From Halogeometricum pallidum JCM 14848 (GTDB lineage: Archaea > Halobacteriota > Halobacteria > Halobacteriales > Haloferacaceae), in contig NZ_AOIV01000021.1 in the NCBI RefSeq assembly GCF_000337095.1, positions 138,083-201,408 on the forward strand: DNA of 63,326 nucleotides. The letters run 5' to 3'. Within the stretch, counting starts at the first letter, position 1, and each line of letters opens with the position of its first letter. Positions 56,200 through 63,326 of this stretch are shown here, piece after piece. The notes under the pieces are model-generated. The model did not search any database. It worked only from the letters and a program-made list of their open reading frames with translations, and had not been told where the DNA came from. A program made the position numbers and the translations under genes.

Positions 56200-56259
56200 G
56201 CGCCGTCGTCCGCCCGGACTCGACACCACACTTATGTGACAAATCGTGTACGTGCGAGT

Positions 56260-58119
56260 ATGAATCCCATAGGGTCGAACCCGGTGGGCGTCTCTCCCCG
56301 GACGCGCACCGAGTTCCAACGGACCGCCGCGCAACTGATCGAGCCGCTGTTCGACCACGTCAGTCCGGGCAACGCGCGGATTCGACCCACGGCGACGGGC
56401 GCTCACTTCCCCGACGCCGCGGCCGAACTGGAGGGGTTCTCGCGCCTGCTGTGGGGAGCGGTCCCGCTCGGCGTTCAGGCCGAGTTCGGGCGCTGGCCAC
56501 AGATTCGAGAGGGCCTCGTCAACGGCACAGACCCGGAGCACGAGGAGTACTGGGGGGCCGCGGGGGACTACTCGCAGAAGCACGTCGAGATGGCGGCCAT
56601 CGGCGTCGGGCTCGCGCTCGTTCCCGAGCACCTGTGGGAGCCGCTCTCGCACGCCGAGCGCGAGCGGCTGGTGACGTGGCTCGACCAGATAAACGACGCC
56701 GAACTGCACGACTGCAACTGGCTGTTCTTCCGGGTGATGGTGAATCGGGGCCTTCGGTCGGTCGGAGCGCCCCACGACGCCGAGCGCACCGAATCGTCGC
56801 TCGACCGACTCGAGTCGTTCCACCGCGGCGGCGGATGGTACACCGACGGGCCGTCGGGGGAGGGAGACGAGAGTCCCGTCGACTACTACCTCCCGTGGGC
56901 GATGCAGTTTTACGGTCTCCTCGACGCCGCGATGGCCGACGGCGACTCCGAACGAGCCGAGCGGTTCCGCGCCCGCGCGAGGGAGTTCGCGACGCAACAC
57001 GTCCACTGGTTCGACGACGCGGGCCGCGCGATACCCTACGGTCGGAGCCTGACGTATCGGTTCGCACAGGCCGCGTTCTGGGGCGGACTCGCGTTCGCGG
57101 ACGCGAAACCCGACTCGCTCTCTTGGGGCGTCGTCAGGGGGTTGTGGGCGCGCAACGTTCGCTGGTGGCTCGACCAGCCGATATTCACCGACGGCGGACT
57201 GCTGTCGGTGGGCTACCGCTACCCCACCCTGAAGGTGTCCGAGAGCTACAACTCGCCGAACTCCCCGTACTGGGCGCTCAAGGCGTTCTTTCCGCTCGCG
57301 CTCAACGCCGGCCACCCGTTCTGGCAGGCCGAAGAGGAGCCCCTCCCCGACCTGCCCGACGTCACCCCCCAACCCGAGGCCGGCAAACTGCTCTGTCGGA
57401 GCGAAGGGGGAGAGCACTTGTTCGCCCTGTCGCTCCCCCAGACGAGCGTTCACGGCCACGAGAAGTACACCAAGTTCGCCTACTCCGCGCGGTTCGGGTT
57501 CTCGGTCGCGAGCCGGCTGCCGGGCGCGGGTCGAGGGGGTCACGACAGCGCACTCGCACTCAGCCTCGACGGGTCGGGGTACGCCACTCCTCAAGAGGCC
57601 ACGGCGACGGAGATGGACGGAACGACGCTCTCCTTCCGATGGGAGCCGTGGGAGTCGGTCCGGGTCCGAACGTGGCTCGCGCCCGCGCTTCCGTGGCACG
57701 TGCGAGTCCATCGAATCGAGACCGACCGGGCCGTCCGCGCCGAGGAGGGCGGGTTCGCTCTCGACAGAACCGGCGACGACGGGGACGCGGCCGTCCACCG
57801 CGCGCGAGACGGGGCCGCAGTCGCGCGGTACCCCAACGGCGTGAGCGGAATCGTCGACGGGTTCGGTGACCGCGCGCCCGCGGTGGTCGAGGCGGAACCC
57901 AACACCAACCTCTACCACCCGCGGACCGTGGTACCGACGCTTCGGTCGACGCACGACCCGGGCAGACACTGGCTCGGGTCCGCCGTCGCCGCCAGCCCCA
58001 GTCCGGAGGCCGCGTGGGACGCCGACCCGGGTATCTCGTTCGAGACGACCGATGACGGAACGGTCGTCGAAGCGTCCGGCGGCGAGACGCTTCTCCGGTG
58101 TCCGTCGGACGAACGGTGA
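56260..58119 (+). CDS. DUF2264 family protein (putative polysaccharide-related)
   Basis: 619 residues. Conserved DUF2264 features: LEGFSRLLWGAVPL, HDCNWLFFRVMVNRGL, ESFHRGGGWYTDG, DYYLPWAMQFYGLLDA and SPNSPYWALKAFFPLAL. The N-terminal ~370 residues are an alpha/alpha toroid like those of polysaccharide lyases and unsaturated glucuronyl hydrolases; the rest is beta-rich. No signal peptide, so cytoplasmic. Family function is not established; members often occur in pectin/rhamnogalacturonan loci. Convergent with the lyase-like beta-propeller gene. The start at 56260 (MNPIGSNPVG) rather than 56236. Confidence 0.85.
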   Translation: MNPIGSNPVGVSPRTRTEFQRTAAQLIEPLFDHVSPGNARIRPTATGAHFPDAAAELEGFSRLLWGAVPLGVQAEFGRWPQIREGLVNGTDPEHEEYWGAAGDYSQKHVEMAAIGVGLALVPEHLWEPLSHAERERLVTWLDQINDAELHDCNWLFFRVMVNRGLRSVGAPHDAERTESSLDRLESFHRGGGWYTDGPSGEGDESPVDYYLPWAMQFYGLLDAAMADGDSERAERFRARAREFATQHVHWFDDAGRAIPYGRSLTYRFAQAAFWGGLAFADAKPDSLSWGVVRGLWARNVRWWLDQPIFTDGGLLSVGYRYPTLKVSESYNSPNSPYWALKAFFPLALNAGHPFWQAEEEPLPDLPDVTPQPEAGKLLCRSEGGEHLFALSLPQTSVHGHEKYTKFAYSARFGFSVASRLPGAGRGGHDSALALSLDGSGYATPQEATATEMDGTTLSFRWEPWESVRVRTWLAPALPWHVRVHRIETDRAVRAEEGGFALDRTGDDGDAAVHRARDGAAVARYPNGVSGIVDGFGDRAPAVVEAEPNTNLYHPRTVVPTLRSTHDPGRHWLGSAVAASPSPEAAWDADPGISFETTDDGTVVEASGGETLLRCPSDER

Positions 58120-58146: not shown

Positions 58147-59502
58147 TTAGACTCCGGCCACGTTCCGCCAGTTGTACCCGACCGACGCCAGTCGCTGGGC
58201 CTTTCGATAGTACGGGCGTTCGTACCGCCTTCGAGCGGCGTCGCCGTCGGCGGCGTTCGAATCACCCCACAATCGGACGCGCCCGTCCGCCGTGTACGCG
58301 AGTATCTGCTCGCCCGGGAAGTCGAACAGCTTCGACGGCGGGAAGCGAGCCACGCGCCCGTCGACGCGACCGAGTTCCTCGCCGCGGTGGTCGACGACAA
58401 GTCCCTCCCGGTCGAACATCTCGTACACGAGGTCGTGGGTGCCGTTCCCGTCGAGGTCGACCGGAAGCGTCGAGTACACCGGGTAATCGAGTTCTCGTTC
58501 CTCGCCGGTGAACGCGTCCCACGCGTACTCGTCCATCTCCTCGTAGGCGGCGTGTTTGTTCGCGCCGGCCATCGCCACTCGACCGTGTTCGCCGAGTCGC
58601 GCCGTCCACCCGGTGTGCATGTGTCCCTCTTCGAGCGCCGTCCACACCCGTTCGCCCGACGCGTCGTACGCGACGACCCGCGGCGGTTCCTCGACGTGCG
58701 ATTCCCGGCAGGTGAACACCGTCCACTCTCCGGTCCGGTGGTCCAACGTCGGTTGCACGATGTCGGAGTGTCCCGACCAACTGTCCCGGTCCGCACACCA
58801 CAGTTGCTCGCCCGCGTCGAGTTCGAGAAGTCGTTCGCCCCAGAGCACCTCGTCGACGCCGTCGCCGTCGATATCCAACACCGGACATTGGTGACTCCCC
58901 TGCGCGCCCGGGTCCTCGCGCGCGAACGTCGTCTCCCACCGTCGACTCAGGTCGGGGTTCCAGCCCTGGAGCTTCATCTCCCGGTACGTACCCTGTGCGG
59001 TGACCAGAACGGGATCCCCTCGAACGTGTCCGCCGAATATGAAGTTCCGATAGGCCATGCTCATCGGTTCGTAGGGGTAGTCCGGCCAGTCCCACGTGCC
59101 GGTCGTCTCGCCGGTCGCCGCGTCGATGCGCGCGAGTCGGTGGCCGTCGAGGGAGAACGGGTGGTCCGGGTCGACCGTGTCGACGTACCAGATCTCCTCG
59201 ACGCCGTCGCCGTCGAGGTCGAACGGGAAGACGGGGCAGAACCACACCCCCGGAACGATTCCGTCACCGACGTCGTGCGTCCACGCGACCGTCTCGTCGG
59301 CCGTGACGAGCGTTAGTTTCAGCGTATCCGTCGGGAGGGTGAAGTGGTTCTGCCCCGGGTCGACACCGGGGTGAGCGCTGTGGACGCAGAGGAGTGCGTC
59401 GGGACCGTTACCGCCCGTCGCGACCGGTACCGCTCGCAGTTGTCGCATCGCGTCCGCCACCGATACCTCGTACAGTACGTCGAGCGAGATCTCGTCTGCC
59501 AT
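58147..59502 (-). CDS. Rhamnogalacturonan-lyase-like beta-propeller protein
   Basis: 451 residues with calcium-binding FG-GAP/VCBS-like loops DLDGDGVEEIW, DIDGDGVDEVLWG and DLDGNGTHDLVYE spaced through a propeller, Trp-rich strands and His-containing loops (HQCPVL). The pattern recalls PL11 rhamnogalacturonan lyases, but it is shorter than the typical ~600 residues and has no signal peptide. Catalytic residues cannot be verified by eye. Convergent with DUF2264, which supports a plant polysaccharide role. A non-enzymatic propeller is the alternative. Confidence 0.65.
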   Translation of the reverse strand: MADEISLDVLYEVSVADAMRQLRAVPVATGGNGPDALLCVHSAHPGVDPGQNHFTLPTDTLKLTLVTADETVAWTHDVGDGIVPGVWFCPVFPFDLDGDGVEEIWYVDTVDPDHPFSLDGHRLARIDAATGETTGTWDWPDYPYEPMSMAYRNFIFGGHVRGDPVLVTAQGTYREMKLQGWNPDLSRRWETTFAREDPGAQGSHQCPVLDIDGDGVDEVLWGERLLELDAGEQLWCADRDSWSGHSDIVQPTLDHRTGEWTVFTCRESHVEEPPRVVAYDASGERVWTALEEGHMHTGWTARLGEHGRVAMAGANKHAAYEEMDEYAWDAFTGEERELDYPVYSTLPVDLDGNGTHDLVYEMFDREGLVVDHRGEELGRVDGRVARFPPSKLFDFPGEQILAYTADGRVRLWGDSNAADGDAARRRYERPYYRKAQRLASVGYNWRNVAGV

Positions 59503-60797: not shown

Positions 60798-62678
60798 ATG
60801 GCGAATATACTGAGTAAGAACCAATCCATGAGACGATTACAAGCGAACGACTCCGACGGGGACCCGGCGGGACTGACTGCCACGCGGCGAACGGTGCTGA
60901 AGGCCCTCGGGGTCAGTGCGGGACTGGCGGGATTCGGCGCGTCGACGGGGATGGCCGCGCAGAGCGACGAGTCGTGGTCGGTCGTCACCCTGCCCGACAC
61001 GCAGTTCTACGCCCGGGACATGACGCGGTACCCCGCCGAGATGACGCAGTGGATCGCCGATAATCACACCGAAGAGAAGGAGAACATCGCCTTCGTGAGC
61101 CACGTCGGCGACGTGGTCGAGAACGCTGACACCATCGCAGAGTGGGAACACATGGACGATGCCATGTCGACGCTCGACGGCGTCGTTCCCTACTCAACCG
61201 TTCCCGGCAACCACGACTGGGAGGAGAACATGGAGCGGAGTTCGTCGATCGCGAACTACAAGGAGTACTTCGGCGCGTCGAGGTACGAGGCGCGGGAGTA
61301 CTTCGGGGGCGCGGGACCCACGAACGGCGACCCGAACCGCGACGACCTCAACACCTACCAGTTGTTCTCCGCGGGCGGGTACGACTTCCTCCACCTCGCC
61401 TTGGAGTGGGAACCGCCGGGGAGCGTCGACGACCCGTCGACGCCCCTCGGGTGGGCCCAGCAGGTGCTCGACGAGCACCCCGACCGGGCGACCATCCTCA
61501 CCACGCACTCGTACCTTCGAAACCCCCCGGCTCGACTCGACAGAGTCCAGGAGAAAGGGGACAAAGACGGAAACTCGGGTCAGACGGTCTGGGAGGAACT
61601 CGTCGCGCCGAACGCGCAGGTGTTCATGGTCCTCTGCGGCCACTGGTATAAAGAAGACGCCGAGGCCGACCAAATCTCGACGAACGAGTCCGGCGAGGAA
61701 GTGTACGAGATGCTGGCGAACTACCAGGCGCGAGAAGACGGCGGTCACGGGCTCCTCCGGCAGATCGAGTTCCAACCCGGCGAGGGCGGGAGCAGTGACG
61801 CGCCCGACCGCATTCAGATGCGCACGTACTCCCCAGTCACCGGAGTTGAAGACGACGAGGACAGCACGTTCGGCTTCGACCTCGACTTCGACGCCCGCTT
61901 CGGAAGCGAGTCCGCGGAGTCGCCGGAAACCGCGTTCCAGCAGGGAGCCGACGGCTACGGCGGCACGGTCGACACCACGCTCTACGAATCCGACCCGATG
62001 ACGGCGTTCGGGAGCGACGAGACGATGGTCGTCGACAGCGACGAACCGCCGAACTCGGGGAGCGCCGCGCAGGCGCTCCTCCGATTCGACGACGTCGTCG
62101 GCGACGGCGACGGACAGATTCCCGCCGGTTCGACCGTCGACGCCGCCACGCTGGTTCTCGAGTGCGTGAACGACGGCGACGGAGCGACGGTGCATCAGAT
62201 GCGAACCGGGTGGGACGACGGCGACACCTGGGACTCGGTCGGCGGCGGCATTCGAACCGACGGAACGGACGCGGCGTCCGACGCCGTGGCCGAGACCGGT
62301 CCCGTCGAAGTAGGGATGTTCGCCGTCGACGTCACGCAGAGCGTACAGGCGTGGGTCGACGGCGACCGGAACCTCGGGTGGGCGTTCGCCCCCACCGGGC
62401 CGGACGGCTGCGACCTCAAGACGGCGGAGAGCGACAACCCGCCCCGCCTCACCGTCCAGTACACCGCATCCGACGGGGGCGGAGGCGGCGACGACACCGT
62501 GACCGGCGACGTCGACGGCGACGGCGACGTCGACGAGGAGGACGTCGAAGCCATTCAGCGGTCGGTGGCGGGCGAGGACGTCGACATCGACGCCGACGCG
62601 GCGGACGTCGACGGCGACGGTGACGTGGATATCGGCGATGCGATCGGTGCGAGAAATATCAGCGAGGAAGGACAATGA
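60798..62678 (+). CDS. Tat-exported metallophosphoesterase with DNRLRE and dockerin domains
   Basis: 626 residues. Tat signal (TATRRTVLKALGVSAGLAG, Arg30-Arg31), then a calcineurin-like phosphoesterase: LPDTQFYA (Asp67), HVGDVVEN (Asp105), PGNHDWEE (137-140), TTHSYL, CGHWY. Residues ~390-555 resemble a DNRLRE-type carbohydrate-binding/cell-surface domain. The C terminus (~575-622) is a dockerin with two calcium loops, DVDGDGDVDEEDVEAI and DVDGDGDVDIGDAIGA. The last GHxH has become GHWY. It should be exported folded and then bound by a cohesin. The stop overlaps the next gene's ATG. The true start may be Met11 (60828). Confidence 0.88.
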   Translation: MANILSKNQSMRRLQANDSDGDPAGLTATRRTVLKALGVSAGLAGFGASTGMAAQSDESWSVVTLPDTQFYARDMTRYPAEMTQWIADNHTEEKENIAFVSHVGDVVENADTIAEWEHMDDAMSTLDGVVPYSTVPGNHDWEENMERSSSIANYKEYFGASRYEAREYFGGAGPTNGDPNRDDLNTYQLFSAGGYDFLHLALEWEPPGSVDDPSTPLGWAQQVLDEHPDRATILTTHSYLRNPPARLDRVQEKGDKDGNSGQTVWEELVAPNAQVFMVLCGHWYKEDAEADQISTNESGEEVYEMLANYQAREDGGHGLLRQIEFQPGEGGSSDAPDRIQMRTYSPVTGVEDDEDSTFGFDLDFDARFGSESAESPETAFQQGADGYGGTVDTTLYESDPMTAFGSDETMVVDSDEPPNSGSAAQALLRFDDVVGDGDGQIPAGSTVDAATLVLECVNDGDGATVHQMRTGWDDGDTWDSVGGGIRTDGTDAASDAVAETGPVEVGMFAVDVTQSVQAWVDGDRNLGWAFAPTGPDGCDLKTAESDNPPRLTVQYTASDGGGGGDDTVTGDVDGDGDVDEEDVEAIQRSVAGEDVDIDADAADVDGDGDVDIGDAIGARNISEEGQ

Positions 62679-63326
62679 GCGAGCGAATCAACGTGTTGGC
62701 CGTCTGCGCCCTGCTGATGGTGGTCGCCATCATCCCGGTCGGGGCCGCGACGGTGACGCAACCGACGACGACGGCAGCAACGATCAGTGTCGGCGAGGAA
62801 GCGACGGCGGCACCGAACGGAACGATAACCGCGGAACCGGGCGAGACCGTCACGGTGAGCGTGTGGGCGAACGCGTCGTCGGTGAGCGGGTATCAGACCA
62901 GACTCACTTTCGACCCCGCCGTCGTACGGGTCGAGGAGGTATCGGGGAGCGACGACTTCGCCGCCCCGGTCTCGAACGTGGACAACGAGAGCGGCACCGT
63001 CGCGTTCAACCAGATTCGCGCTTCGGACGGCGACGATCCCGTCCTGGCCGAAATCACGCTGACGGTGGTCGGCGAGGCCGGCGAAAGCGCCGTGCTCTCG
63101 TTCGAGGAGTCCGAGACGAAGTTCGCCACCGACGGCGGACAGACGTTCGTCCCGCAGACGATCAACGACGTGACCGTGAGCGTCGAGGAGGCGGAAACGG
63201 AGACGGAGACAGAGACGCCCGCACCCACGACCGAAGCACCGACGACTACCACCGAACAACCCACCACCACCACGGAAGAACCGACGACTACCACCGAACA
63301 ACCCACCACCACCACGGAAGAACCGA
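62675..63326 (+). CDS. Cohesin-domain secreted protein, 3' end outside window
   Basis: 217 codons are visible, still open at the window end. Signal peptide (LAVCALLMVVAIIPVGAA, ~7-24). The cohesin domain (~37-170) has the typical opening EPGETVTVSVWANASSVSGY, QTRLTFDPAVVRVEEV and VAFNQIRASD, closing with AVLSFEE. A Thr/Glu/Pro-rich linker of repeats follows (TTTTEQPTTTTEEP), probably O-glycosylated and leading to an anchor outside the window. ATG overlaps the stop of the dockerin gene (ATGA), so the two are translationally coupled. The pair is likely to interact, but affinity is inferred. Confidence 0.87.
   Translation, partial: MSERINVLAVCALLMVVAIIPVGAATVTQPTTTAATISVGEEATAAPNGTITAEPGETVTVSVWANASSVSGYQTRLTFDPAVVRVEEVSGSDDFAAPVSNVDNESGTVAFNQIRASDGDDPVLAEITLTVVGEAGESAVLSFEESETKFATDGGQTFVPQTINDVTVSVEEAETETETETPAPTTEAPTTTTEQPTTTTEEPTTTTEQPTTTTEEP
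63241..63326 (+). repeat. 42-bp tandem repeat coding a Thr/Pro/Glu linker
   Basis: Two copies of a 42-base unit (GACGACTACCACCGAACAAC onward) with the same phase, encoding TTTTEQPTTTTEEP twice, reaching the window edge. Such perfect repeats mutate in copy number by slippage, which would vary the linker length. Confidence 0.85.

Follow-up and report, generated by a model that had tools for sequence, protein, structure and literature searches.

Cohesin-dockerin pairs are known from archaea, and partners from other species have been verified to bind each other (PMC9012536), including the non-cellulosomal pair of Archaeoglobus fulgidus (Bayer 1999; Haimovitz 2008, as cited there). In the same paper, ANME proteins have no more than five cohesins, and earlier work cited there finds large scaffoldins missing from archaea. 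In haloarchaea, type I dockerins have been read as substrate-binding modules (PMC10963439, PMC13260240). The A. fulgidus pair resembles the one described here in that it is archaeal and non-cellulosomal, with both halves in one genome. Each of the A. fulgidus proteins reportedly carries both cohesin and dockerin modules. To our knowledge, no description of them mentions a phosphoesterase whose cohesin sits on a separate, anchored protein. The bacterial cellulosome (Clostridium thermocellum CipA/OlpA) also has the cohesin fold and the type I dockerin in common with our pair, and its OlpA-type single-cohesin anchors are the nearest functional analogue of the cohesin protein reported below.

The pair lies at the right-hand end of the window, a stretch of 63,326 nucleotides (C21:138083-201408) of the Halogeometricum pallidum JCM 14848 genome. 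On the plus strand, a gene for a 626-aa phosphoesterase-CBM96-dockerin protein (60798..62678; ORF call with Pfam and NCBIfam profiles) is followed by the 5' part of a cohesin-anchor gene (62675..63326, running on beyond the window end; ORF call with Pfam), and the two are joined by an ATGA stop/start overlap at 62675..62678 (+ strand, from the ORF coordinates). All four domains of the pair (Metallophos, CBM96, Dockerin_1 and Cohesin) exceed curated cut-offs. An earlier note had described a phosphoesterase, in place of a glycosidase, ending in a two-loop dockerin, its gene overlapping by ATGA with that of a secreted cohesin with a repeat linker; the ORF coordinates and the profile searches of both products bear this out, and they support a single overlapping transcription unit. 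Upstream of the pair lie a gene for a DUF2264 protein (56236-58119; 415 bits, Pfam) and, on the minus strand, a match to a rhamnogalacturonan lyase family 11 C-terminal domain (58147-59502; 43 bits).

The enzyme opens with a twin-arginine signal region, TRRTVLKALGVSAGLAGFGASTGMAAQ (60882..60962, +). The motif TRRTVLK is plain by eye, a hydrophobic stretch is present and, by inspection, the two arginines are conserved among relatives; the Tat profiles score under their cut-offs (TAT_signal 9.9 versus 22.7; TIGR01409 15.3 bits versus 16.7, just under). The calcineurin-like phosphoesterase domain follows (60966..61907, +; PF00149, 28.9 bits versus a cut-off of 21.5), with a metal-ligand core of PDTQ, GD, GNHD, H and GH that is conserved in the alignment of the catalytic family. 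Among solved structures, the phosphoesterase gave only a weak match, to a plant phosphatase (3zk4, 22 bits over 49 residues), too slight to serve as a guide to the substrate. Behind the catalytic domain we found a CBM96/DNRLRE module (61971..62459, +) that the earlier note had missed, matching PF24517 at 31.2 bits (cut-off 26, Pfam) and NF033679 at 50.7 bits (cut-off 34, NCBIfam). The ligand of the founding CBM96 is alginate (PMC9971899), which weakly indicates an acidic polysaccharide; the module probably directs the enzyme to such a polymer.

The C terminus of the enzyme is a type I dockerin (62505..62675, +), in which two tandem 12-residue calcium-loop F-hands, DVDGDGDVDEED and DVDGDGDVDIGD, lie 32 residues apart. 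Dockerin_1 (PF00404) reaches 23.9 bits against a gathering score of 22.9, and 27.5 bits in the genome search. Against a profile built only from haloarchaeal members outside this cassette, the domain scores 39.0 bits and the best of 2000 shuffles 13.1. The nearest solved chains are cellulosomal dockerins. EF-hand families are absent among the Pfam matches of the enzyme at E<=1, and a reading of this region as only a generic EF-hand therefore fails on sequence grounds.

The downstream product comprises a Sec-type signal peptide, MSERINVLAVCALLMVVAIIPVGAA (62675..62749, +; by inspection, with no twin arginine), a cohesin domain (62819..63184, +) and a Thr/Glu/Pro linker of TTTTEQPTTTTEEP repeats (63196..63326, +). 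The cohesin matches PF00963 at 40.2 bits versus a gathering score of 24.1, and scores 75.4 bits against a cassette-free profile, where the best of 2000 shuffles gives 20.3. An AlphaFold model computed with 11 relatives (pLDDT 82.7, pTM 0.77) predicts the cohesin β-sandwich fold for this domain; among the PDB matches listed for the model, all are cohesins, many of them solved bound to dockerins (4uyp, E 1.6e-8, TM 0.71; 6kgc, TM 0.75). A linked CBM96-dockerin-cohesin model of a related locus (L052, with a TGA read as Trp) gave a pTM of 0.45, with dockerin pLDDT of about 50-73, values too low to bear on the complex.

The window ends inside the repeat linker, and the next base of the contig is a lone N (L007:9410). 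Past this assembly join the repeats resume in another frame and are followed by a CARDB domain (34.7 bits) and the tail STPGFGFLVTLVAMTLLVGWRARGRDER (L007:9411-10244). Since an intact paralogue on contig C8 has the identical order, we read the sequence on either side of the N as one gene, interrupted by an assembly gap of undefined length. The tail, which came to light on extending the sequence rightward in search of the anchor, as the earlier note had proposed, consists of a PGF motif, a hydrophobic transmembrane helix and a basic C-terminal end, the layout of an archaeosortase substrate (PMC8559796). The PGF-CTERM profile TIGR04126 scores 21.5-22.0 bits, just under its curated cut-off of 24.5, and archaeosortase A (ArtA) is encoded in the same genome (C42; TIGR04125, 349 bits).

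Taken together, the two genes probably form a surface-display cassette, in which cohesin-dockerin coupling would tether the enzyme to an anchored partner. The phosphoesterase would fold inside the cell and leave via Tat; the cohesin protein would leave via Sec, and its PGF-CTERM-like tail would fix it to the membrane or lipid layer, probably via archaeosortase A. Outside the cell, the calcium-loaded dockerin would bind the cohesin, so that a long flexible stalk would keep the enzyme at the surface; its substrate may be a polymer, of the surface or of the environment, with phospho-ester or phospho-diester bonds. Leaving enzyme and anchor unfused possibly keeps Tat export of the folded enzyme apart from Sec export and C-terminal processing. 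Different export routes and surface tethering had both been put forward in the earlier note, and both find support here. Phosphate scavenging may be the role of the enzyme, with a probability no higher than that of an action on some polymer of the surface. A reading of the locus as a defence system was discarded, with no PADLOC match.

To place the pair in its family, we used the catalytic domain to scan 84,980 species genomes, which gave 19 loci, and obtained more by searching 392 genomes from the order; once duplicates had been removed, 20 of the enzymes had a dockerin and 15 had none (35 loci). The cassette recurs in Haloarcula, Halorubrum, Halobellus, Halogranum and further genera. A cohesin gene lies directly downstream of all 20 dockerin-bearing enzymes and beside none of the 15 dockerin-less ones, 12 of which are informative, since three bacterial ones have fewer than 700 bases downstream. 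Stop and start codons overlap in 17 of 19 inspected pairs (14 ATGA, one GTGA, two TGATG), with gaps of 2 and 6 bases in the remaining two. The twentieth pair (G400) was found via its cohesin, and the upstream enzyme-dockerin gene was then confirmed; conversely, across 292 genomes, 17 of 17 cohesins of this clade adjoin such an enzyme, G400 having been checked after prediction. Four genomes hold both kinds of enzyme (H. pallidum, G202, G248 and Halogranum rubrum), and in each the cohesin stands only beside the copy with the dockerin.

Four changes of dockerin state fall on the enzyme tree, of which the starred branches force at least three, and the cohesin changes along with the dockerin each time. 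Dockerin and cohesin have been gained or lost jointly at least three times, on a tree that does not tell gains from losses. Two sister pairs illustrate this, one member of each having the dockerin and the other lacking it (L048 versus L053, 100/100; L052 versus L046, 96/90). In a partial Mantel test that controlled for the enzyme, the distances of dockerins and cohesins showed a correlation (r 0.34, p 0.0004) that is modest and of supporting value only. These patterns bear on a rival account, in which the partner of the dockerin is a substrate or some other component of the surface, the cohesin has a separate purpose and their adjacency is operon history. Both haloarchaeal papers cited at the outset describe type I dockerins as substrate-binding; joint presence and absence in the 35 loci, joint change on the tree and an independent haloarchaeal lineage with dockerin-subtilase and cohesin genes in the same order argue against it, and we regard it as very unlikely.

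That second family of dockerin-then-cohesin pairs comprises L065, L067, L069, L072, L073, L074, L098 and L099. In the four that were run against Pfam (L065, L069, L072 and L073), the cargo is an S8 subtilase. Gene order is as in the window pair; the differences are the protease cargo, which often has its own cohesin, and cohesins that fall outside the present clade by score. A larger arrangement occurs elsewhere in the haloarchaea: a 2089-aa scaffoldin with 14 cohesins (Pfam, 278 bits; L095:5162-11431, G264:C1:81161-87430, and L096; L079 and L097, G087:C1), bearing a Sec-like signal and a PGF-CTERM-like tail. Its cluster has at least nine dockerin-bearing ORFs; seven were run against Pfam, and six of these encode S8 subtilases. 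The arrangement resembles a protease array of cellulosome-like type.

Within H. pallidum itself, three dockerins passed the cut-off in a genome profile search, as did two cohesins. Two of the dockerins sit on phosphoesterases, that of the window and that of a second pair on C8, where a Tat-type phosphoesterase-dockerin gene without CBM96 overlaps by ATGA with a gene whose product runs from a cohesin through a linker and an Ig-like domain to a PGF tail. When the whole protein is run through hmmscan, the C8 dockerin reaches 20.1 bits and so misses the cut-off of 22.9; in the genome search it reaches 24.0 bits. The window and C8 copies are identical at 80% of positions in the dockerin and at 73% in the cohesin, and for this reason we infer that cross-binding between the two pairs is likely. 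The third dockerin (36.2 bits; L009:8240-9853, C21:112239-113852) belongs to a Tat-exported repeat protein in which inspection found no recognised hydrolase; it was rejected as a partner, being of a different type and having no cohesin found nearby. A cohesin match on C41 was likewise rejected as weak (13.3 bits, in a large enzyme-like protein). An ORF at L010:10181-11689 contains short exact duplications beside an N, probably draft assembly artefacts. The family has a third phosphoesterase in this genome (L089), with no dockerin and no cohesin neighbour; like L053 and L046, it is of the same catalytic family, often with CBM96, and differs in lacking both coupling partners. From their PDTQ motif, we take these dockerin-less enzymes to be YvnB-like.

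The description of the pair as cellulosome-like was not supported. Each unit has one cohesin, and there is neither a scaffoldin nor a glycosidase; with a single cohesin and no glycosidase, the cassette is not a cellulosome. It differs from the bacterial system further in having an archaeal anchor in place of SLH and a Tat-exported cargo. Only the two single-cohesin genes passed the cut-off in the H. pallidum genome, with no multi-cohesin scaffoldin found, and no plant-polysaccharide hydrolase was found among its three dockerin proteins.

Most cassettes adjoin a gene for an HprK-like P-loop protein of ~380 aa (for example, L008:10983-12119). It stands beside 14 of the 17 cassettes with sufficient flank, one copy being a fragment; in Halorubrum rubrum, the HprK-like gene is such a fragment (L049:2307-2900) and the cassette is intact. 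The 392 genomes hold 14 close homologues, all of them within ~1.6 kb of this phosphoesterase, and at L046 the gene adjoins a dockerin-less enzyme. Several loci also contain glycosyltransferase, flippase, sugar-nucleotide or sulfatase genes, noted as raw sightings. We speculate that kinase and exported phosphoesterase could act on one surface polymer: a cytosolic HprK-like kinase would phosphorylate a surface-polymer precursor, and the tethered phosphoesterase would remove or remodel the phosphate outside, a scheme that complements tethering. The adjacency of all 14 homologues speaks for such a system, and the glycan-related neighbours may do so too. Against it stand the absence of the kinase beside the window copy, L045 and L086 and a weak and partial likeness to HprK-related kinases (TIGR04355, 31.7 bits versus a cut-off of 200), so that we hold it to be doubtful. 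Equally tentative is its extension to a previously undescribed three-gene haloarchaeal module of HprK-like kinase, dockerin-phosphoesterase and anchored cohesin, which would set the phosphate on a surface polysaccharide or its precursor, the coupling serving post-export assembly of Tat and Sec partners and the window copy being a kinase-less duplicate.

The missing kinase also enters a further alternative, that the window copy is a duplicated unit whose catalysis has been lost or changed and which acts as a binding protein. Its final GHxH histidine is replaced by tyrosine (GHWY, not GHWH), as such a change might leave it; several further members of the family also vary at this position (GHSW, GHFT) and the window copy keeps all its remaining ligands, which makes this alternative unlikely.

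Archaeal cohesin-dockerin pairs and their binding were already known; what seems new is a probable display cassette with a single, dedicated cohesin. A literature search, with most subscription journals outside its reach, found no paper joining a dockerin to a metallophosphoesterase. The proposed surface-display cassette is a clean case beyond polysaccharide degradation, with dockerin and cohesin as a dedicated one-to-one pair, and it gives a clear test of the role of archaeal dockerins against the substrate-binding reading of recent haloarchaeal papers. For surface display, it would provide coupling partners that are stable in salt. By the coupling with which bacteria build cellulosomes, the enzyme is probably clipped to the cell exterior, and the case suggests a general haloarchaeal means of holding exported enzymes at the surface.
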